From assembly GCA_027623425.1 (NCBI GenBank), contig JAQBTH010000011.1, positions 1 to 38,915 of the forward strand: a DNA stretch of 38,915 bases, given 5' to 3'. Below, one piece after another: positions 154 to 21,194 of this stretch (its first letter is position 1; the number at the start of each line of letters is the position of its first letter). The translations under genes were made by a program, and so were the position numbers. The stretch is from a bacterium (GTDB lineage: Bacteria > Margulisbacteria > Marinamargulisbacteria > UBA817 > JAQBTH01). The notes below the pieces were generated by a model. That model was not told where the DNA came from and searched no databases. It was given only the letters and a program-made list of their open reading frames with translations.

Positions 154-1893
154 TTAAAACAGGTGGCCAAGATTAAAATGAATAATGAAGTCCCCGCCCT
201 TATCCACTTCGCCCCACGCAAAATCCAATCGAAAAGGCGCTAAACCAGTAACATAGCGTAATCCAAACCCATGGCCCGTGCGATAATCAGACATGTCACC
301 ACTAAATTCACCGTCGAACACGTTTCCAACATCATAAAACAAGACGCCATGAACATCTTGCCCTAATGGAAACCGCCATTCGAAGTTTGCTAACGCGCGC
401 TTGACGCCTGAAAACTCAAACTCGGGATACCCTCGCAAGGAAGTTGACCCACCAAGAGAAAATTCTTCGCTTTCAAAAGTCGGCACATTACTGCCATCAT
501 CTCGATCAAACTTACCAATGAATCCCCGCATCGCAATGGCCGACTCAAAAGGAGTGGGTATAAATTGCGCCATATGCAACGTCCAACGTGTAAAGTTTAC
601 GCCCCCAAAATCGGCCGCCCCTAAATAACCCGCCCGTTCAACGGAACCAATAACATACCGGCCTTCTCGACTATTAAAACGATTTATTCGTGTATCCCAG
701 TTTGTAACAAACGCAAGGCTTCTAACATCGTAAGACTGAAAATCATCTCCATCACGCGGCTGCACGCTTTCGCTTTTAAATGTTGTAGAAAAGGTCAGCT
801 CATCTAAAATAATAGGTATACCAAACGTTGTTCCCACCCCACTTCGCACATTGCGTAGCGTATTGTCTTGGCCCGACAACGCCTCATTACGAAACTCTGT
901 CCACCCATCTAGCGCCCAACTAATCGGAATAAGGTTCATTAGCCACGGTTGATAGTAACGCATGGAATAACTGCGCACGCCCACCTCATCGGTTAAGCGT
1001 ATTTGAGGTTTCAACGAAATACGATCACTGGTCATAAACAGATGGTTATAGGTCAAACGTAAAAACGCTGCCACGCCAATATCCCCATTATCTTCATCAA
1101 TTTGCTCAAGCCCCACATCCACTTGATTAATATTTTTTTCAGTCATTTTATAGGTAATCGTAACGTCTTCAGAGGCAGAGTTCATCTGGCCCAACTGGGG
1201 AATTGAAACACCTGAAAAATAACCCGAACGCAACAAGCGAGATCGGTCACGCCTAACGCGCTGAGAATTAAAAATGTCACCCTTTTTCTCTGTAATAGTA
1301 CGTTCCACAATAAAAGGTTCTGTTTTTTCCAATCCCTCAAATACCACTGCGCCAATATGCCCCTCTTCTACGGTAATGCGCAACACATCATCTACTAAAA
1401 CAATCGATGTCACAGCAAATAAATCATAGTGACGAGAATGGTAGTAATCCTCCAATGCTTTTATATCGTCTTCAACATAGGACGAATTAAATACCTGCCC
1501 TGGTTTATTCTTTAATTTTGTCGTAATAAGCAACGGCCAAAACCGGGTCATGCCAACGTATTCAATACGCTGTATAGTTGGATTCTCAACCACTTGATAC
1601 GTCACATAGACCCCTACCCCCTTGCCCTTATCGTCAAAGTTCACTTTTACAGATTCAAAGTAACCCCTAAGATACAAGGCCCGCATATCGAAACGCACAT
1701 CATCCGGGTACAAAGGGCGATTGCGTCGCACTTTAAAGGCGCCAATTTTAGACAAATCAGATTCCGAAATGCGATTAAGACCACTGATCTGTACCTTACT
1801 AACCAACTGCCCATATGGAGCGGCATAGACCGGCACCACAGCCAAAAGCACACAGCAGATTAAAACAGTTGATCGCATCATCTTAAAAATCAT
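154..1893 (-). CDS. BamA/TamA (Omp85) family outer-membrane assembly protein
   Basis: Signal peptide, POTRA-like N-terminal repeats, C-terminal barrel with 'GGSTSLRGYPEFEF' and 'GFGLRYVTGLAPFRLDFAWG' motifs typical of Omp85. Confidence 0.9.
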   Translation of the reverse strand: MIFKMMRSTVLICCVLLAVVPVYAAPYGQLVSKVQISGLNRISESDLSKIGAFKVRRNRPLYPDDVRFDMRALYLRGYFESVKVNFDDKGKGVGVYVTYQVVENPTIQRIEYVGMTRFWPLLITTKLKNKPGQVFNSSYVEDDIKALEDYYHSRHYDLFAVTSIVLVDDVLRITVEEGHIGAVVFEGLEKTEPFIVERTITEKKGDIFNSQRVRRDRSRLLRSGYFSGVSIPQLGQMNSASEDVTITYKMTEKNINQVDVGLEQIDEDNGDIGVAAFLRLTYNHLFMTSDRISLKPQIRLTDEVGVRSYSMRYYQPWLMNLIPISWALDGWTEFRNEALSGQDNTLRNVRSGVGTTFGIPIILDELTFSTTFKSESVQPRDGDDFQSYDVRSLAFVTNWDTRINRFNSREGRYVIGSVERAGYLGAADFGGVNFTRWTLHMAQFIPTPFESAIAMRGFIGKFDRDDGSNVPTFESEEFSLGGSTSLRGYPEFEFSGVKRALANFEWRFPLGQDVHGVLFYDVGNVFDGEFSGDMSDYRTGHGFGLRYVTGLAPFRLDFAWGEVDKGGDFIIHFNLGHLF

Positions 1894-4800
1894 AACTATA
1901 CTTTAAAGAAAACCGCGATTGAAAATCGGTTGAATCGTTATACTCATTTATATTACTTAGATTAAGGGACAAACGCCGAGAAAAGAAGTAGTTAAATTCA
2001 AACTCAGTAAATTGCCACGTCTCAGAATTTTGCCGCGTTTCAGAAGACACGTCCATATCTGTTCGAACACGCACAAACAACTTCTCGGAAAACAGTGCCC
2101 ACATCAGGTTCACGCCCAATCGATTTTCTTCAACAACCCCATCATGATCATTCCCACGCAACGATTGTCCCACGTTCCAATCCAAACGAAAATCGTACAA
2201 ACCTATTTTCTCTGCAAGCTGCCGCTCAAATGGTCGCACACGGCTACGAAACCAAATCGTGGCCTGCCGTTCACCAAACCGGTCGAAACTGGCATCCGTT
2301 GAATCCGCCAACACCCCAGGCATAATCAGGCGCAACCCATCTTGGCTAAACCGGTCACTGGCATTCCCACCACCCAATTGAACCTCATAACGTTGAATAA
2401 AATGCGCATCACGCCCCACCACTGCGCTGCGCGTTTCATACTCCTCAACAATAACCGACTCTTCCAACCGATCCAATCGACCAGTAACCATCAAAACACC
2501 GGCGGTATAGGGGTACTCTTCAACCACACTGCCACTCGCCACTTCGCCCGACAAAAGCGATTTTTCAATAAATGTAATCCCGCGAAAATCAAACACTGGT
2601 ATAAGTTGACGCCGAGTCCCATTCTCAGGCACATCGGTCACAAAAGACACTTTATTAGCACTCACCTTGTCTGGAAACTCACTAAAGAAAAACCGCTGCC
2701 GATCCACTGGCATCACTTCAAATACGCGATCAAAAAAGCTGATTGTACCCTCACGAATAATAATAGCCCCATCAATAACAGGCAGCGCCATACTACCACC
2801 TAGATGCACTTTGGTTTCCGGTGGATGCTCTTGAATTTCAAGAAAGAAATTATTTGCGATACTCCAAATCCCACCGCCAAATAACCCACCTTCTGCGTAC
2901 ATTCCCTTGCCAATGACCAAGTCCAAATCAAGCAGTAGCGAGGGCCGTGAACCTGAACTAGACACGCGAGGTACCGTCACCCGGCCTTCTTCAAAGAAAA
3001 CAGAACCGCTCAAAACAGGTGCTTGTTCATTTGCCGTTCCCCGCTGCCCCAACCGCAATAGACGCGCGTCATTCGAAACCGGAATAACAACAGGCCCTTC
3101 TAAGGCCAGATTGCGCAACTTCACTTTTCCGCGATACATATTTTGCAATTCCAAATCCAAATCACTATCCGCCAAATGCAACTGAGACATAAAACGAAAT
3201 TCACTTAACTCATATAAATTTAAAGACTCGATACGAATAGAACCTGACAGCCCCATTAAATTCGCGGTCTTGCGTTCGGGAATAAAAAAGCGACTACGAA
3301 TCATGCGATTAAGATTCAATTCCACGCGATTCAATTGCAGGTGATTATTGGCAAAGACCACCGACCCCTTCGCTAAGCTTAGGCGGTTACCCACTGACGA
3401 TTTTCCAGGATCAAAATCCACATAAAAACGGTCTAAATCGATAATGGGCGCGGAAAACACAGGAGAGGCTAGCGTACCATCAACTTTTACGAAAACCCGG
3501 CCTTGATTGTGAATTGTTTGTACTTTGGGCACTAAAAATCCCAACATGCTGACATCGTCCCCCTCAAGATCCAATTCTAAACCAACTGGACGCTCTGCCC
3601 CTTTTTTTTGCCAATGCCCCGAAAGAGGGTAAAATCCTGTCAAAAACCCTATTGAATTATGGTTAAATGCCCGAACAAAAGACCGCTCAAAATGCAAATT
3701 TCCTTGTTCATCATATCGCATATCCAACGAGATCTTATCAAAAGACTTCCCAAGAATAAGCCCGTCTTCTAAACGCCATTGGGTTTGCACTCCTGCAGTA
3801 TCCGTTTTAAGATTCAAATCAAACTTAGCCGATGAAACCTGCCCGATATGACCATCCCTTATGCGCAAGTCTCCGTTTATAATGGGCATTTTGTCTGGCC
3901 GTGAAACCAACGTCAGATCACCCTCAAAGATCCCCGCCAAATCAGTCTTAATCAAACGATCATCAGAATTCCCACGCTCAAAATCATGGTCGGCAGACAC
4001 CGAACGAAAGTACTCTACCTCATCACCCCCGCCCCCTAACTGATACACGGCACGAAATCCCGAAGACAATGTGGCATAATGCAAATCCCTCGGCACATCA
4101 TAAACAGTAATATTTCCATTCGAAATCTCTTCTTCTTGATACGTTGTAAACACACGCCGCTCTTTATACTGGGTAAAAATGCGTTCCGAACGACTCAAAA
4201 AATCGATAATGTCAGTTAAATTCACATCATCAAAACGCAACGACATGTCATAATCCCATTCGCCAGGCAGATGGCCAATCACTGAAGATACATCTAAACG
4301 GCCATCAAGCGACACCCGATTCTTGTCCAATTGGGCACGAACATGTGATAAATACAATTGAGAGTTCTCGTAACGCACGCGGCCTTCAAACGAATCCAAT
4401 CCCACACCATTTACCTGAAACTGTTCCAATTGAATAAACATGTTGGCACTAGACTCATTAGTGTTCTGGCCATAAAAGCCATCCACGTCTAAAACACCCG
4501 TGGTATCCCCAAATTGAGCGGTTAAAGAAGCGAAATCACTCAACACGATAGAGGTGCCAGGTTTCAAACGCACATTAAAATTCTGTGTGGATATCCACTT
4601 TCCTGAAGCCAATAATTGCGACTCGTTATAATGTACCGCAAAGTCGTCTACTCGGATTCCAGATTGACTGTATTGCCCCGAAACAAATAACGAATCAAAA
4701 TATTGGCCATGAATATTTCCATCAATAATACGCGCACGCCCCGATATCGCCCGATCATCTAATTCTAATTCACCCGATAATATTCCGCGCACAGGCAAAA

Positions 4801-6856
4801 GCGCTTCAGGCAATCGATCCTGCAGCCAATCCCCATCCACAAAAGGCCAGTCTTCCAACTCCACCTTTAAATGCTGTGAATCCAAGTTCCGATACGTCCC
4901 CGTCACCGCGATCACACCTTCTTCTAAGCGCGCGTTCACCTTATCCAAGTACACCGTATCATCACCATATCGGCCAACAAATTGAGCCTCGCTTAATCGT
5001 TTACCAAACAATGCGCCGCCTTTTAGCCGCACATCAAAAGTGCTAGTAAATGCATCCAACAACCGCTCTCTGACCATACGAGAAAAATCATAAGACACAC
5101 CCACATCAAAAGACATTTTCCCCAATGGACTCGGTCCCACGTTTGGATTAACGTCAAAATAAGTCATATCATCCACGCTCAAATTAAGAGATAAATCGGT
5201 CAGTTCCCTTATATTTCCTGTACCCGTTATCACATCCCCACCAGGAGTAAAGACTTGCACCGATTCTATGGCAATCCGCTGTTTATCTTCTACCACCATG
5301 TGAACGCCTAGCTCTGAAATGGGTTGACTATAGGCCGTAATTGACGAGCCTGTTGCCACGGTATCCACCCAAAATTGATCCCAATTTCCATGCAAGCGCG
5401 ACTCTAAATTTGCCTTGCCGGTCACAAATCGTGCCATCAAAGGAAAGGTAGATTCCAATGAAAAATCACGCACAGAAAAATTCATATTGAATGTGGGGTA
5501 TTCACCAGAAAGATGCAATTCGCCATCGCCCCCAAAATCCCCCGTCATCAGCGTTCCAGACGCAATATCAAAGGCCAACACATGATTTTCAATATGATAC
5601 CTTATATCTGTATTCGTAGGTTCTAAGCCATAAAAATACGCATTTTTTACCGCCAAATCACCTGCGATAACAGGGTGAGAGAGTGGGCCTGTAATTCCAA
5701 CCGCCAAATCCGTATTTCCTGAAAATTTTAATGCGGATAACACAGGGAAAAGACGTCGAAATACGGCAATATCAAATTGTTTAGAATTAAAATTCAAATC
5801 AATAATGGACCGATGAAAATCAATTACCCCGCCACCATCCAATGGCATTCCATCTAAATTTCCTGTGATGCCATCAAATGAAATCTTAATCCCTTGTTTC
5901 TCTGGCTCTTCCGCAAGAAAAATAGTGCCCCTCACCGCATCTACTGGGGAATCAAAAAAAGGAATTTTCAACATCAAATCCGTCGTATCAACCGCGATTG
6001 AATAGGTAAAAGGAATTTCCTTTACGTCCTGTGGCACCGGGTATTTTGACACAATTTGACCTCGCACATTTACCTGGTCTCCCGACACAACATAATCAGG
6101 CATTGGCAACACATAATTGCCCCAATGATCCAAATCCATTTTAGAGAGCAGAAAATTAAACATGTAGCGTCCTGTTTTTGGATGAACAGCACCATTAATA
6201 ACAAAGGGTTGATTGGTGCGCCCATACCGCCCCGAAACATCCAAAGGAGCCCGCGCCGTATCTGCAAAATCCATGTACCCATTTAACCCCGTAAATGTGG
6301 TTAAAAACGGCGCATCACGCAACTCGTGCACCCACCCCCTATCATCTGTGTAAGACCCGCTCACATTATCAAACACCAACTTACCCACAAAGGCAATCTC
6401 GCTACCAGACTCGCTGTTTGGGGCAAAAATAAAATCAAAAAAGTTCCACGTCCCATCACGTGTGCGGTGCACATCCAGGTCCATATTCACAAATGCCACT
6501 TGATCAATGGCCGCTAAAAAATCCCCGCGAGACCGAAACAAGAGGCGAAACAAGCTGTAATCCACAACTACCATATCGGCTCGAACCAAACGGCCATTCT
6601 TCAAATCATCAAAACTCGCGATTTCAACCCCATGGCATTTTACCTGAGAAAGCAAATTCCCAGAAATGCCACTTATTTCAATTTGCCGCTTATATAGTTT
6701 TGATAGCTCGCGTTCAACGATACGCTCGATTTCCCGCTGAGGCACATTGCTTCGATACAACGCAGAAATAGGCACATACGCCATCAAAAAGGCCATTAAG
6801 AGAATAAAAACCACCAGTCGAGTTACACCAGTGAACTTAATCATGTATCCGCTCAA
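1883..6856 (-). CDS. TamB/DUF490-family translocation and assembly module protein (AsmA-like)
   Basis: 1657-aa protein with N-terminal TM anchor, long beta-rich body with repeated 'G.l.l.g.y' segments, TamB-like C-terminus. Overlaps the start of the downstream Omp85 ORF by 11 nt. Confidence 0.85.
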   Translation of the reverse strand: MSGYMIKFTGVTRLVVFILLMAFLMAYVPISALYRSNVPQREIERIVERELSKLYKRQIEISGISGNLLSQVKCHGVEIASFDDLKNGRLVRADMVVVDYSLFRLLFRSRGDFLAAIDQVAFVNMDLDVHRTRDGTWNFFDFIFAPNSESGSEIAFVGKLVFDNVSGSYTDDRGWVHELRDAPFLTTFTGLNGYMDFADTARAPLDVSGRYGRTNQPFVINGAVHPKTGRYMFNFLLSKMDLDHWGNYVLPMPDYVVSGDQVNVRGQIVSKYPVPQDVKEIPFTYSIAVDTTDLMLKIPFFDSPVDAVRGTIFLAEEPEKQGIKISFDGITGNLDGMPLDGGGVIDFHRSIIDLNFNSKQFDIAVFRRLFPVLSALKFSGNTDLAVGITGPLSHPVIAGDLAVKNAYFYGLEPTNTDIRYHIENHVLAFDIASGTLMTGDFGGDGELHLSGEYPTFNMNFSVRDFSLESTFPLMARFVTGKANLESRLHGNWDQFWVDTVATGSSITAYSQPISELGVHMVVEDKQRIAIESVQVFTPGGDVITGTGNIRELTDLSLNLSVDDMTYFDVNPNVGPSPLGKMSFDVGVSYDFSRMVRERLLDAFTSTFDVRLKGGALFGKRLSEAQFVGRYGDDTVYLDKVNARLEEGVIAVTGTYRNLDSQHLKVELEDWPFVDGDWLQDRLPEALLPVRGILSGELELDDRAISGRARIIDGNIHGQYFDSLFVSGQYSQSGIRVDDFAVHYNESQLLASGKWISTQNFNVRLKPGTSIVLSDFASLTAQFGDTTGVLDVDGFYGQNTNESSANMFIQLEQFQVNGVGLDSFEGRVRYENSQLYLSHVRAQLDKNRVSLDGRLDVSSVIGHLPGEWDYDMSLRFDDVNLTDIIDFLSRSERIFTQYKERRVFTTYQEEEISNGNITVYDVPRDLHYATLSSGFRAVYQLGGGGDEVEYFRSVSADHDFERGNSDDRLIKTDLAGIFEGDLTLVSRPDKMPIINGDLRIRDGHIGQVSSAKFDLNLKTDTAGVQTQWRLEDGLILGKSFDKISLDMRYDEQGNLHFERSFVRAFNHNSIGFLTGFYPLSGHWQKKGAERPVGLELDLEGDDVSMLGFLVPKVQTIHNQGRVFVKVDGTLASPVFSAPIIDLDRFYVDFDPGKSSVGNRLSLAKGSVVFANNHLQLNRVELNLNRMIRSRFFIPERKTANLMGLSGSIRIESLNLYELSEFRFMSQLHLADSDLDLELQNMYRGKVKLRNLALEGPVVIPVSNDARLLRLGQRGTANEQAPVLSGSVFFEEGRVTVPRVSSSGSRPSLLLDLDLVIGKGMYAEGGLFGGGIWSIANNFFLEIQEHPPETKVHLGGSMALPVIDGAIIIREGTISFFDRVFEVMPVDRQRFFFSEFPDKVSANKVSFVTDVPENGTRRQLIPVFDFRGITFIEKSLLSGEVASGSVVEEYPYTAGVLMVTGRLDRLEESVIVEEYETRSAVVGRDAHFIQRYEVQLGGGNASDRFSQDGLRLIMPGVLADSTDASFDRFGERQATIWFRSRVRPFERQLAEKIGLYDFRLDWNVGQSLRGNDHDGVVEENRLGVNLMWALFSEKLFVRVRTDMDVSSETRQNSETWQFTEFEFNYFFSRRLSLNLSNINEYNDSTDFQSRFSLKYSYDF

Positions 6857-12529: not shown

Positions 12530-13585
12530 ATGGAAAGGTTAAGAAGACTGGTGAACATCTCCGATTTTGATTACGAACTCCCTAGCGAATTAATAGCCCA
12601 TGCGCCACCACAACATCGTGGGGATTCCAGATTGATGATCATCGATCCCGCATCAGGCCAAATTCACCACCATATGTTTAACGAGATAGTAAAATTGCTC
12701 AACGAGAAATGCGTATTGGTGTTTAACAATACAAAGGTAATTCGTGCACGACTACGGGGCACTAAACCCACAGGAGCCGCAATCGAATGCATGCTCACAG
12801 AACCATTGGGCAATCACGAATGGTTGGCGATGCTAAAACCAGCAAAGCGCCTTAAAAACGGCGATTTAATCCAAATCGGTCCGGGCTTCGACGTGGAAGT
12901 ATGCGAAAAGAACATGGTGGATGGCCTACACCGCGTAAAACTACACCATGAGTCCCCCATGAACGCCATTCACGAACACGGAGAAATTCCATTACCACCC
13001 TACATTTCACCAGATTGCCATCCCAATGAATTGGAAGACCGATACCAAAGCATTATGGCAAAAGAAGATGGCGCAGTAGCAGCCCCAACAGCAAGTTTGC
13101 ACTTTACCACTGAATTATTAGAAAAACTCATCCAAAACGGCGTGCAAATCGAAGAAGTCACCCTGCATGTGGGCCTTGGCACCTTTGCCCCGCTGCAAGA
13201 CCACCATGTAAAAAGCAAAACCCTGCACCATGAACAGTACCACATTTCCCAAGAGGTGGCAGACCGCCTAACACGCGCAAAAGCCAGCGGAAAACACATT
13301 ATTGCCGTAGGAACCACTGTTACGCGCACCCTAGAATCGGCATTTTCTAAAAATGCGTTTCAATCAGGTACCCACCGCACAAACATCTTCATCCAACCGG
13401 GTGACACCTTCCACGCTATTGATGGCTTAATTACCAATTTTCACCTGCCAAAATCCTCATTACTCATGCTCGTATCGGCCTTTTCTGGTGTAAATCACAT
13501 TCAAACAGCCTACCAAATAGCAGTAAAAGAAAAATACCGTTTCTTTAGCTTTGGAGACGCAATGTTAATACGGAAACCAGTATGA
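12530..13585 (+). CDS. queA: S-adenosylmethionine:tRNA ribosyltransferase-isomerase
   Basis: 'DFDYELPSELIAHAPPQHRGDSRLM', 'HVGLGTFAPLQ', 'GTTVTRTLES', 'TNFHLPKSSLLMLVSAF'. The true start may be internal to the track ORF. Confidence 0.95.
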   Translation: MERLRRLVNISDFDYELPSELIAHAPPQHRGDSRLMIIDPASGQIHHHMFNEIVKLLNEKCVLVFNNTKVIRARLRGTKPTGAAIECMLTEPLGNHEWLAMLKPAKRLKNGDLIQIGPGFDVEVCEKNMVDGLHRVKLHHESPMNAIHEHGEIPLPPYISPDCHPNELEDRYQSIMAKEDGAVAAPTASLHFTTELLEKLIQNGVQIEEVTLHVGLGTFAPLQDHHVKSKTLHHEQYHISQEVADRLTRAKASGKHIIAVGTTVTRTLESAFSKNAFQSGTHRTNIFIQPGDTFHAIDGLITNFHLPKSSLLMLVSAFSGVNHIQTAYQIAVKEKYRFFSFGDAMLIRKPV

Positions 13586-16500
13586 TTAAGCGCTCTCTAC
13601 TTACCATCACAATCTGTTTTTCAACCGTCATTCCTGCGTTAGGGCAAACAGCCAATTACCTGCCAAACCTCAGTGCCAGCACGGGGAATACGCAAGAAAA
13701 AACAGCCCCCGTTAAAACCAAAGTAATCCCCCTAAGTATCCAAGATATTACCGAGATTGATGCCGAGCAATTCGCGCAATCCACTCCCATAGAAACAATT
13801 ATCACAACAACAAACATCACCACGCCCACCATAAATAGTGAAAGCACTATAATAAACGCGCCAAGCGGCCCCTTCTTACCCGCGATTCCAGGGCCAGACA
13901 TTCCAGCAACTTGGAATGAAACAACGTCATTTCTAGGTTACAACACCAAGCAAGGGCGGTATCCAGATGTGAAATCCGACGGTTTTCTTGAGCTCGTACT
14001 AAGCAGCAGAGAACACACAAATGACTTGGATAAATTAGACACCATACGAAACGATGAGGTATATAAAAAGATCCCCCTCGATGTGGTCGAAGGTAGCACT
14101 AAATTTGATATGAGCTACGATATAGGTTTAGAGGGTAAATTAGACGATGACCTCACTATTTTTTACGATATCGAAAAGGAACCTGACTTTCCAGGAAAAT
14201 ATAATTTAAAAATCCAAAAAGGCAATCACGAGCTGCAATTTGGTGATTTCGAATCTCAATTTGGGGCTGGCGAATTTATCGATGTTAAAAAGTCCCTTGA
14301 AGGTGCAAAAGTGGAATCGAGAAACCTAAGTTGGAATGGAAAGATTGCCACTGGTAAAACGAAATCTGAACCTCAGAAACTACAAACATTTGGTAATGGC
14401 GGACGCATTTACAATCTAGGTAAGCAGTATATTTTAGAAGGATCCGTTACAGTTTACATCAACAACAGCAAGCAAACTGAAAATACCGATTTTACCATCA
14501 ACTATTTTGAAGGAACGGTAACCTTCACAAAGCCGATTACCAAAGTCGACTTCATTAAAATAATTTATGAGTTTACAAATCCCATACAAGATTTCATTCC
14601 ATCACTATCCCGAAAAAGCTTCACTGGCGCGCAATTTTTCTACGAACCCAATGAGTTTTTCTTTACCGAAAAATTTATCACCGGAACGGCCGATGAAGAA
14701 TTAATCACAACTCATAATCCAATTAAAAATGGCACACACCGCTTCTTTCTAACCCATCCTCACGTGGTGCTTGGGTCTGAAACCGTCTACCTAAATAACG
14801 AACGATTAACACACAAAAGCGATTACTTTCTAAAACACCGAAGTGGCGGCATCACACTACAAAACTTAAGTGTTGGCCCCAATGATTCACTACGTGTTAT
14901 TTACAAATACGTCAAAACAAAACCCATCGAGGAAATCCAATCCGGTCAAAATTCCCAAGGTCCGTATTATCTAGGGCATAAAAATATAGCACCAGACTCT
15001 GTTGTTATCAAAATAAATGGCAAACCCGCACAAGAAACGGTTGATTACACCATCGACTATGACGAAGGAAAACTCTACTTTAATTATAAGGTGCAACGCG
15101 TAGATACCATCGAAATTGAATACACCGCCTTGCTTTCTGTCATCGTCAAACACCAACCTGAGGAATCCCCACTACGAGTTGGTATTACCTATTTAGATGA
15201 AAGCTCCAGTTTAAGAGACGATGTTGTCGTAGAGCGCGCCGGTGAAACGCCATCTCTTGGTGATGATAACCGCACCATATCAACCGATTTTTTCCCGATA
15301 GAACAATCCCGACCCGTGGTCGTAACTGTAAGCGATGTGATAGTAGAGGTGCCCTCCGCCAATATTGACTACTACCGCGGTATCATTACCCTAGACGCCC
15401 CTGCTCCAAATGCAGACAGCATAAAACTGGATTATTTTTACCGAAAAAGCTTTACCGCTGAAGCACAGTTTAAAACCCAAGCGGGTCGAAATACCTACAC
15501 TGTTCTTGAAATCGATCCGCCAAAACTACCCATTCGTTTTGATGGTGTTTCCCGCGTACAAATGCCCGACGGCACCGACCTGTTAGAGGGCGCGCAAAGA
15601 GATTATACGGTCGACTACCTTGATGATGGACAAGACTTTGTTCTAACGATAATCACTAATCAATTAGAATCCCAACTCACCTCTATTCCAGTGGACCAAA
15701 CCTTAAAAATAACCTATAAATTCACCCCCGATTCAGACCTATCTCAAGGTAAATCGCAGCAACAAATGTTCGATTTAATCTTAGATTATGAAGTAAACGA
15801 AAAATGGAAAATCAACACAGAATACGCCTATTCATACTTTGATTTCTCTAAAAATAAGAAAGAAACCAGTGAGCGCATTTTAGTGAGTAGCTCAACCGTA
15901 GACCAAGAATACACACTTGCAAATAAACCCGTTGTAATCGACACAGAGACCATATTTTTAAATGGGTTTCCATTGTCCCGTGATAAAGATTATTTCATCA
16001 ACTACGAGCAAGGTACTGTTCGGTTTCGAAACCTCACATTAAGCAGCAGTGACGAAGTTACAATCAAATACGATTATTTCGAAAATGACAAACCTGATGC
16101 TCAGGCCGCCAACGCCTACAAAGTCGGAACAAGTTATAAAGTCCGCGACAACGTCACTATCCACAGTAGCGCTAAATTCATCGAGCCCAACTTCCGATCC
16201 ATTGGAGAATTAAAAGATGAACCCGGCACATTGGCCGTGAATGGGGGCCTGCTCTGGAATATTTCTAGCAGCGATAATATTAGCGTGGATTACAATAAAC
16301 GCACCCGTTATAACGATGTCTACGATGAAGTGCGAGACGAGCGCGAATTTATCACCAGTGCCAATTTAATAATGCTAAATTTAGACACCACTCACACATT
16401 CAGATTTCAGGAATTAGAAACAACCGGCGACGTTACTGAAAAAGATTTCCGTTTAACCGCATATGAAAATGGCATCGGGTTCGGTCCCAACCATCTTCGT

Positions 16501-18471
16501 GCAAATATCACATCCTTACTCAGCCAAAAAATTGAAAGTTTCAAAGTAGAAGAAGAGCGAGCCGACAGCCTTATTACTGGATATGGAACCTCTCTTTTCT
16601 ATGAGCCAAAAAAACCCCTCATCGTCAAAAACATCAATTTTAAGCCCTACTACAACCACCAAAGTCAAAGTACGGAACGCTTAATTCCCACACAAGACAC
16701 TGTCCAACTTACCGATTATTACGGCATAAAATCCTCAACTAAAATAATCCAAGGTCTCGACAATACGGGTTCATTCGAGAAAAAGACCCTTAGTTTTGGC
16801 TTTCCAGACATTCAGATCGTAGATGATTATTACAACTATTCAAACATCACCACTTACTACCCGTTCTCTTGGTTTACCACGTCCTATGCATTGGATCATG
16901 AAGAAGAAGTAAGCCCAATTCCAGGCCAACGGTACCGGATTAACGACCAGCAAATCTTCCATATTAATCAACTTGGATTGTATAGCGGACTAAAGTTCGT
17001 CCATGCGCCTGCCTACATCTATCGCCGATTCAGTGGCGCAAATGCCACCGCCTTAAACAGCGCAACAAAAACCTTAGAAAACAATGCCTTAAAAAAATAC
17101 AATCAAAAACGCCAATATTACACCCTAAGTAATTTCGCACCATACAGCTGGTTTACCTTAAATTCTTATGGCTTCGAAACCCGAAATTCAGACACCAAAG
17201 ACAGGCAAACAAGCAGCACTCAACTGCGGTTTGATAACACTTTAGACTATGTGAATGCAGACGGAAAACTGACATTTACACCACAAGGAAGAATATTAGA
17301 ACTATTCGAATACAAAATAGATTTCGAAAACTTAGATTCAAATTCCAACAGCAAAACCGTGTTAGCATCTGGCACCGAAAATCGCACTGAACGCATTTTA
17401 ACAGACGATATCCAAAACCATTTAATCACCTTTAAACCAGGTGATTTCAGCCTTGGTAATATGCAAATAAAAAATCCTGTAATGACATTTAACCATAAAA
17501 AGACCAATAAATCAGACCTAGAAGAAACGCAAAGTTTTTCAAACAATATCGCTCTAAACAATCCACGCTTTATACTAGAAAACCAAGAAGTAAGTGGAAA
17601 CACAGTAACCTTAGGTTTTACGCCATTTCGCATCATGGATGTGGATGCCACATATACGGATCAAAAAGAATACTACAACCGAAATAAAGCAATAACAGTG
17701 GCCGGTAGTTTATATAAAACATTTATCAATAGAGAGATAAAATTTGGAATCGACCCATATACCAAATTTCAAACCGATTCCTATTACCGCTTAAATACCT
17801 TAGAACAAAACGAAAACAGCACAATCAATGTCAGCATTAAAGAACTAGAAGGAAGCGATTCAGAAAAGAAATTAAACCTAAAAGAAGATTATTATGGCAC
17901 ACGACTCACTTTTACTCCTTGGTCACCAATATCATTTGTTGGCGCATTTGATGTCATGGATATTACCCAGCGACTCACTCAAAATAATGACTTCAATAAA
18001 GAAGATTTCCAACAGGATAAATACACAACCGGACTCATTATACGCCCACTACGCGATATGTCTCTTGGGGTCGACTATTCAGTAAAACAACTGCAGCAAA
18101 ACCAAGACGAATTTACAGGTTATTCCTCCGTTGCGACATTTTTATATAACCCACTTCGTTTTGAAAACTTTAGACTCGATGTTAATATTTCTCAAACCAA
18201 CTCCTGGGGATATGGATTTAATGAATTAGAACGCGATAGCCTATTGCAAACCAGTGGCGCCATACAAAACTTTTCGATTCGAAATCGTAATGACTCCGTT
18301 TTATTAGCCTCAATTATTCTGTCGCTAGACATTACTTTAGATAATTTCCGCTATCTAGATAAATTAGTGATATCGGGTGAAGCCTACGTCAAACGCATTA
18401 CAGATGAAGTCAATCCAGAAAACGAATATGAGATCAGTGGTATGCTTTTCAAAACATCCATAATGCTTTAA
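13582..18471 (+). CDS. Large secreted/outer-membrane protein with SprA-like tandem beta domains
   Basis: Signal peptide 'MIKRSLLTITICFSTVIPALG'; 'FGDFESQFGAGEF' motif; repeated 'VYlN...DY.I.Y..G.v.F...i...D.i.I.Y.y' units; C-terminal region rich in alternating beta-strand pattern. Overlaps queA stop by 4 nt. Confidence 0.75.
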   Translation: MIKRSLLTITICFSTVIPALGQTANYLPNLSASTGNTQEKTAPVKTKVIPLSIQDITEIDAEQFAQSTPIETIITTTNITTPTINSESTIINAPSGPFLPAIPGPDIPATWNETTSFLGYNTKQGRYPDVKSDGFLELVLSSREHTNDLDKLDTIRNDEVYKKIPLDVVEGSTKFDMSYDIGLEGKLDDDLTIFYDIEKEPDFPGKYNLKIQKGNHELQFGDFESQFGAGEFIDVKKSLEGAKVESRNLSWNGKIATGKTKSEPQKLQTFGNGGRIYNLGKQYILEGSVTVYINNSKQTENTDFTINYFEGTVTFTKPITKVDFIKIIYEFTNPIQDFIPSLSRKSFTGAQFFYEPNEFFFTEKFITGTADEELITTHNPIKNGTHRFFLTHPHVVLGSETVYLNNERLTHKSDYFLKHRSGGITLQNLSVGPNDSLRVIYKYVKTKPIEEIQSGQNSQGPYYLGHKNIAPDSVVIKINGKPAQETVDYTIDYDEGKLYFNYKVQRVDTIEIEYTALLSVIVKHQPEESPLRVGITYLDESSSLRDDVVVERAGETPSLGDDNRTISTDFFPIEQSRPVVVTVSDVIVEVPSANIDYYRGIITLDAPAPNADSIKLDYFYRKSFTAEAQFKTQAGRNTYTVLEIDPPKLPIRFDGVSRVQMPDGTDLLEGAQRDYTVDYLDDGQDFVLTIITNQLESQLTSIPVDQTLKITYKFTPDSDLSQGKSQQQMFDLILDYEVNEKWKINTEYAYSYFDFSKNKKETSERILVSSSTVDQEYTLANKPVVIDTETIFLNGFPLSRDKDYFINYEQGTVRFRNLTLSSSDEVTIKYDYFENDKPDAQAANAYKVGTSYKVRDNVTIHSSAKFIEPNFRSIGELKDEPGTLAVNGGLLWNISSSDNISVDYNKRTRYNDVYDEVRDEREFITSANLIMLNLDTTHTFRFQELETTGDVTEKDFRLTAYENGIGFGPNHLRANITSLLSQKIESFKVEEERADSLITGYGTSLFYEPKKPLIVKNINFKPYYNHQSQSTERLIPTQDTVQLTDYYGIKSSTKIIQGLDNTGSFEKKTLSFGFPDIQIVDDYYNYSNITTYYPFSWFTTSYALDHEEEVSPIPGQRYRINDQQIFHINQLGLYSGLKFVHAPAYIYRRFSGANATALNSATKTLENNALKKYNQKRQYYTLSNFAPYSWFTLNSYGFETRNSDTKDRQTSSTQLRFDNTLDYVNADGKLTFTPQGRILELFEYKIDFENLDSNSNSKTVLASGTENRTERILTDDIQNHLITFKPGDFSLGNMQIKNPVMTFNHKKTNKSDLEETQSFSNNIALNNPRFILENQEVSGNTVTLGFTPFRIMDVDATYTDQKEYYNRNKAITVAGSLYKTFINREIKFGIDPYTKFQTDSYYRLNTLEQNENSTINVSIKELEGSDSEKKLNLKEDYYGTRLTFTPWSPISFVGAFDVMDITQRLTQNNDFNKEDFQQDKYTTGLIIRPLRDMSLGVDYSVKQLQQNQDEFTGYSSVATFLYNPLRFENFRLDVNISQTNSWGYGFNELERDSLLQTSGAIQNFSIRNRNDSVLLASIILSLDITLDNFRYLDKLVISGEAYVKRITDEVNPENEYEISGMLFKTSIML
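14431..16085 (+). repeat. About six degenerate SprA-like protein repeats (DYxIxYxxGxVxF type)
   Basis: Units including 'SVTVYINNSKQTENTDFTINYFEGTVTF', 'SETVYLNNERLTHKSDYFLKHRSGGITL', 'SVVIKINGKPAQETVDYTIDYDEGKLYF', 'SDVIVEVPSANIDYYRGIITL', 'TETIFLNGFPLSRDKDYFINYEQGTVRF'. Confidence 0.7.
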
Positions 18472-20393: not shown

Positions 20394-21194
20394 ATGGTAA
20401 ATGCACCGATTGGTATTTTTGATTCAGGAATAGGCGGATTAACCGTTCTGCGACAACTTATAAAACAGTTCCCAAATGAAACCTTTATTTATGTGGGTGA
20501 TTCGGCCCGTGCGCCATGGGGCAATAAAGATAAAGCGCTACTTAGCATCTACAACGACCAAATTATGACCTTTTTAAAATCAAAAGGGTGTAAGTTTATT
20601 GTGGTGGCGTGCAACACCAGTCAATCGTATTTTGGGGATCGTGCATCACAAAAATTTAATATTCCTTCAATTGGATTAATCGAACCCACAGGAAAACGCA
20701 TTTCCCAAATTTCAACCACAAAAGAGGTCGCTATTTTTGCCACAGATGGTACGATCAAAACGAAAAGCTATGAAACCGCCATACTACGCGAAGATCCTGT
20801 CACAATCGTTCATAATGTTCCTTGCCCTAAATTAGTACCTCTTATCGAATCAAAACAACTCATCTTAGAAGACCTAAAAGCAGCAATAAACGAGTATTTG
20901 GATAAATTAAAAGGCACCCACTGTGACACCATCGTATATGGCTGTTCCCACTACCCCATTATTCATCCGCTAATTAAAAGTTATGCACCAGCGCATATCA
21001 AATACTTCATCGACCCCGCCACGTGCATAGTGGCGCCAATGAAGGCTCAAATTAACGCCCTCAACCTAAGTGCAGATCCCACAAAGAAAGGCGAAATCCA
21101 CTTTCACGTCAGTGGAGACATCGCCCAGTTTAAGTCCGCCTGCGAACAATTCGAAGTGCCAATTACAAGCCTTAACAAAGTAACGTTAGATTAA
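20394..21194 (+). CDS. murI: Glutamate racemase
   Basis: 'PIGIFDSGIGGLTVLRQL', 'FIYVGDSARAPWG', 'VACNTSQS', 'VYGCSHYPII'. Confidence 0.96.
   Translation: MVNAPIGIFDSGIGGLTVLRQLIKQFPNETFIYVGDSARAPWGNKDKALLSIYNDQIMTFLKSKGCKFIVVACNTSQSYFGDRASQKFNIPSIGLIEPTGKRISQISTTKEVAIFATDGTIKTKSYETAILREDPVTIVHNVPCPKLVPLIESKQLILEDLKAAINEYLDKLKGTHCDTIVYGCSHYPIIHPLIKSYAPAHIKYFIDPATCIVAPMKAQINALNLSADPTKKGEIHFHVSGDIAQFKSACEQFEVPITSLNKVTLD

Follow-up and report, generated by a model that had tools for sequence, protein, structure and literature searches.

A SprA-like giant outer-membrane protein of Margulisbacteria and its candidate type IX-like export partners

A gene from a Marinamargulisbacteria contig encodes a giant protein that probably acts as a divergent outer-membrane translocon of the SprA type, through which a reduced type IX-like system would export its cargo; we put the probability of this reading at roughly two in three. 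The homology of the protein to SprA is well supported, and its function in secretion is suggested by analogy with characterised systems. The initial annotation had proposed that this locus may encode an SprA-like export or adhesion system, and the SprA reading gained support from SprA profile matches, from Foldseek matches to SprA structures and from PorV-family and CTD-bearing partners. T9SS-like genes have also been observed outside Bacteroidota, in phyla related to it. Reviews describe the T9SS as specific to Bacteroidota (PMC7463736, PMC10202324), and in an incomplete literature set our search returned no paper linking Margulisbacteria with type IX secretion or the T9SS.

Gene and genomic context

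The window analysed here is the whole stretch of contig JAQBTH010000011.1 (38,915 nucleotides, forward strand). The gene lies in the following arrangement:

12530..13585, plus strand: queA, order kept in the class (Pfam QueA, 408 bits)
13582..18471, plus strand: giant SprA-like outer-membrane protein gene, 1629 aa, single copy in its genome
18483..20375, plus strand: N-acetylmuramoyl-L-alanine amidase, order kept in the class (Pfam Amidase_3, 184 bits)
20394..21194, plus strand: murI, glutamate racemase, neighbouring gene (Pfam Asp/Glu racemase)

The SprA-like gene proved to be real: its reading frame is intact from an ATG start to a TAA stop, and the protein begins with MIKRSLLTITICFSTVIPALG, a signal-peptide-like N-terminus. 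The reading frame is not due to chance, because orthologues are present in 53 of 56 Margulisbacteria genomes (29/29 of the high-quality ones) and the order queA, SprA-like gene, amidase (and murI) is widely kept in the window's class. The queA stop and the ATG of the SprA-like gene overlap by 4 nt (ATGA), the gap to the amidase gene is 11 nt and the next one, to murI, 18 nt. These short distances had been taken as a sign of co-transcription with the amidase and murI, and hence of a cell-envelope role. The distances were as described; the role did not follow from them, as the neighbours are largely housekeeping genes and other Margulisbacteria classes have different genes around the SprA-like gene. 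Linkage to the amidase and murI was therefore dropped as a clue to function.

Similarity to SprA in profile searches

The following features were located within the gene:

13582..13644, plus strand: signal-peptide-like N-terminus, about residues 1-21, from sequence
14089..14406, plus strand: N-terminal barrel block, residues 170-275, collinear with SprA 140-329, profile score 14.0 bits
14239..14277, plus strand: FGDFESQFGAGEF motif, residues 220-232, from sequence, conserved across the phylum
14398..14655, plus strand: stretch matched by TIGR04189 (model 593-675), the first DYxIxY module and then a TNPIxDFxPxLSRK segment
14488..16026, plus strand: beta modules, canonical at residues 303, 414, 488 and 803, two degenerate ones between
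16096..18468, plus strand: C-terminal barrel region, residues 839-1629, 35 long strands in AlphaFold model mbbeee40dffe7, mean pLDDT 81.6

The FGDFESQFGAGEF motif had been recognised by the initial annotation, together with "about six" DYxIxYxxGxVxF modules; the motif was found again, and the modules amount to four canonical copies and two degenerate ones, seen by eye near residues 594 and 673. Scanned over its full length against Pfam and NCBIfam, the protein gave one match, to a phage-tail-like module, the rest being weak. An identity as a phage distal-tail or DUF2460 protein was rejected, as these matches span one 80-residue beta module only. As phage tail proteins also resemble it, the DYxIxY module alone is not specific to SprA.

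The NCBIfam SprA model TIGR04189 matched 29 of 32 orthologue fragments with a best E-value of 1.8e-15. The window's own fragment reached 5.6e-10 summed across two stretches, and the N-terminal 373 residues of the protein scored 20.9 bits. In genome searches TIGR04189 gave matches in 38 of 52 genomes, at about positions 585-717 of the 2319 of the model (one match starts at 525); all were far below the 200-bit cut-off, which no match in the 52 genomes reached. The Pfam SprA_N model (PF14349) matched in none of the 52 genomes, nor in any positive control. Searching the PDB sequences with a profile of the family returned no SprA match, and hhalign comparisons with single SprA fragments were weak (77% and 3%).

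Since the part matched by TIGR04189 includes the generic module, a module-free block was tested separately. A profile of residues 170-275, which lacks the DYxIxY modules, was compared with a segment of Flavobacterium johnsoniae SprA (chain residues 140-329 of the solved structure, sequence read from the PDB). The SprA fragment scored 14.0 bits, versus 6.2 bits for the best unrelated real protein among ~1,050 and 9.6 bits for the best of 4,000 shuffles; only members of the SprA-like family and of its paralogue ranked above it. The alignment is collinear across about 97 residues and places the GDF motif on SprA GNVS, K.LnGvk on SLFGVKT and gKeKSe on SEQKSQ, so that the two families have in common an N-terminal motif block (R..l.i.Gki...leV, GN/GDF, sLfGvK, seqkS) in addition to one DYxxDYxxGxV module. 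For the TN..LSRK segment no match to SprA is claimed, as 65 of 2000 shuffles scored as well. The SprA resemblance first noticed from the sequence is thus backed by the TIGR04189 matches and by this module-independent reciprocal profile test.

Predicted structure

Two overlapping AlphaFold models were computed, for residues 126-1000 (mean pLDDT 79.5) and 430-1629 (mean pLDDT 81.6). They consist of hairpins, small modules and then, in the C-terminal 791 residues, 35 long strands, the halves having been modelled separately; the long beta-rich C-terminal half described earlier corresponds to these strands, which begin after residue ~839. When searched against the PDB with Foldseek, the N-terminal half matched SprA structures at ranks 1-3 (2.2e-11, 1.4e-10 and 4.1e-9; next hit 1.3e-7) and the C-terminal half matched them at ranks 1, 3, 4 and 5, the best matches of the models being 8gl6, 8gl8 and 6h3i. 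SprA therefore came out on top for both halves of a many-stranded beta fold, as the annotation had anticipated, with TM-scores of 0.14-0.25 for halves modelled alone. Because these TM-scores are low, the matches do not fix the global shape, and in the list for the C-terminal half TonB receptors come close to SprA.

These last observations would also fit a convergent origin of the similarity, in which generic beta-hairpins and short Ig-like modules decorate an unrelated large barrel, for instance a TonB receptor or an usher. TonB receptors and ushers do follow SprA in the Foldseek lists, and the DYxIxY module matches phage tail families as well. However, the module-free N-terminal profile ranks SprA above the ~1,050 real proteins, PorV and BamA-type barrels included, and partners characteristic of the T9SS occur, and are paired, in the same genomes. 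We consider convergence very unlikely.

The lower ranks of both Foldseek lists contain LptD structures, and like LptD the SprA-like protein would be a large outer-membrane barrel present in single copy. It might then stand in for LptD as an LPS exporter, inserting LPS into the outer leaflet. LpxC, which acts in lipid A synthesis, was found in 38 of 48 genomes and the LptD model PF04453 in none of them, although this model detected Escherichia coli and Caulobacter. It also missed the Synechococcus control, however, which may mean no more than that LptD has diverged in this lineage; moreover, the SprA-like protein has no OstA/LptD domain match, and its structural match to LptD is orders of magnitude weaker than that to SprA. 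An LptD substitute is thus a highly improbable identity for the protein. As a separate observation, the LPS exporter of the Margulisbacteria is either absent from these searches or diverged.

Compared with SprA/Sov (TIGR04189; PDB 6h3i, 8gl6, 8gl8), the preferred reading as a divergent SprA-type translocon involves a giant single-chain beta-barrel, predicted in our case, and the top structural match for both halves. The differences are of length (2403 aa in F. johnsoniae SprA against 1330-1870 aa in the Margulisbacteria family), of profile score (far under the TIGR04189 cut-off, with no PF14349 match) and of host (Bacteroidota for SprA, a phylum close to Cyanobacteria for the family described here).

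Distribution in the phylum

The genomes with orthologues include the named relatives Marinamargulisbacteria, Saganbacteria/WOR-1 and Termititenax. Their alignments display a single conserved design, composed of an N-terminal hairpin block (consensus YDIEQEPDFPxKYDV...FGDF...GEF...K.LNGV...GK.KS), the modules and a long variable beta-rich region. The last residue of the orthologues from named contigs is Phe in 23 of 25 and Leu in the remaining 2/25. Part of the Margulisbacteria also encode a second, shorter SprA-like paralogue (ORFs of 801-1081 aa), which often follows a gene for an NHL beta-propeller of ~330 aa and whose best match to TIGR04189 is 51 bits. The giant protein is the only SprA-like one found in the genome of the window and in most of the class to which it belongs.

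CTD cargo and PorV-family carriers

Among the other T9SS parts named by the initial annotation, PorV-family proteins and CTD-type substrates were found, whereas GldL and GldM were not. In 51 of 52 genomes, versus 1 of 14 control genomes, the T9SS-type CTD model TIGR04183 scored above its curated cut-off. Proteins of the PorV/PorQ family (NF033709) are likewise encoded in 51/52 genomes and exceed the cut-off in 30. The families over cut-off, with their genes adjacent, are thus those of the T9SS (NF033709, TIGR04183, PF18962); the Margulisbacteria differ in their many PorV-family copies, up to about 20 per genome, and in CTDs that are mostly FlgD_ig-like.

The pairing of the two families was counted among 150 listed matches of each model. 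A CTD match followed on the same strand by a PorV match within 400 nt occurred 30 times among the matches listed, versus 0.06 expected, and no other arrangement in proximity was seen among them. The window's own genome has such a pair, formed by a subtilase-Ig protein with a CTD (3092 aa) and a PorV-family gene (NF033709, 127.6 bits). This 3092-aa protein (L104:2372-11650), encoded directly before the PorV-family gene (L104:11637-12815), contains 17 Ig-like repeats in addition to its subtilase domain and the CTD. The converse order, a PorV-like gene and then a CTD protein, was found in 14 further genomes. The members tested of this second group are S8 subtilases in which the D, H and S motifs are visible in the sequence, and in the one scanned against NCBIfam the CTD was hit by the C-terminal end of the PorU model (3.9e-13). 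In Bacteroidota, porU and porV are neighbours. The two arrangements are alike in that the gene of a protease with a CTD adjoins that of a PorV-like barrel, and they differ in the protease, a subtilase (S8) in Margulisbacteria and a C25 cysteine protease in PorU.

When distinct CTDs were compared, 53 of 56 lay at the protein C-terminus, and a K or R stood 6-9 residues from the end in 53/56. In type A CTDs a conserved lysine contacts PorV (PMC10994853); judged from sequence, the K/R near the end is in keeping with type A CTDs and may correspond to this lysine. Elsewhere, two tandem proteins of 1000-1150 aa (L112:2422-8895) carry terminal type A CTDs of textbook form (NYPNPFNP...KKMVLTK). PorV-family ORFs of 600-780 aa also occur (L108:4595-6499, L110:6911-8860); to the eye their C-terminal tail has an SLH-like appearance, and it may connect the barrel with the cell wall.

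A CTD subtilase gene immediately adjoins the SprA-like gene in the Saganbacteria/WOR-1 class. Only in this class, and in one genome outside it, was the SprA-like gene seen linked to genes for CTD or PorV proteins, which would suit a different function: the protein may be SprA-derived and yet export or display non-CTD material, or be a structural or adhesive surface barrel, the CTD proteins leaving the cell by another way. The existence in part of the phylum of the shorter paralogue, usually placed after the NHL beta-propeller gene, points in the same direction. Against this stand the Saganbacteria arrangement itself and the findings in the window's own genome and the majority of its class, where no other SprA-like protein was found and CTD-PorV pairs are nevertheless present. 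We regard such a function as unlikely.

Motor and sortase searches

GldL had no match in the Margulisbacteria genomes, nor in any control genome. For GldM, three genomes had weak matches (best 1.8e-4), none above the cut-off, and again no control genome was detected. A C25/PorU peptidase was found in only 2 of 48 genomes, with no control genome detected either. The absence of the motor is provisional, because the GldL and GldM searches detected no control and SprA itself is diverged in this phylum. As the SprA matches stayed below the model cut-off and the motor and sortase searches gave these results, we do not class the system as a full T9SS.

Discussion

The most economical reading of these data, by analogy with F. 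johnsoniae, is that the giant protein serves as an SprA channel. In F. johnsoniae the CTD binds within the SprA pore to loops of PorV that reach through the lateral opening, and PorV and its cargo come free of the translocon only with energy from the GldLM motor (PMC10994853). In Margulisbacteria, proteins with FlgD_ig/T9SS-type CTDs would cross the inner membrane by Sec, and the cargo CTD would enter the SprA-like barrel, where a barrel of the PorV/PorQ family, docked at the side opening, would bind it. Cargo and PorV/PorQ-family barrel would then exit sideways together to the cell surface. The CTD subtilase encoded beside a PorV-like gene may process or anchor the cargo and so replace the cysteine protease PorU. 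Both the lateral exit and the subtilase role are put forward by analogy.

A broader proposal, which we advance tentatively and consider somewhat doubtful, is that Margulisbacteria universally use a stripped-down T9SS made of an SprA-type channel, PorV-type carriers, CTD cargo and a subtilase in place of PorU, without the GldLM motor. The T9SS might in that case be much older than Bacteroidota, or have been rebuilt on another energy source. A phylum-wide set of SprA-type channel, carriers and tagged cargo, far from Bacteroidota in the bacterial tree, would bear on the age of the T9SS and on its minimal core, and in a version with no recognisable motor the source of power for export becomes a directly testable question. 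For the uncultured Margulisbacteria, one member of which is an animal symbiont (PMC6784892), such a set also suggests a way of placing large proteins on the cell surface.

The window contains a further gene pair of interest, ~7 kb away from the SprA-like gene. On the minus strand, at 154-6856, a BamA/TamA-like barrel gene overlaps a TamB/AsmA-like gene (1657 aa; TamB C-terminal match of 22.6 bits), and the two form a TamA-TamB-type pair.
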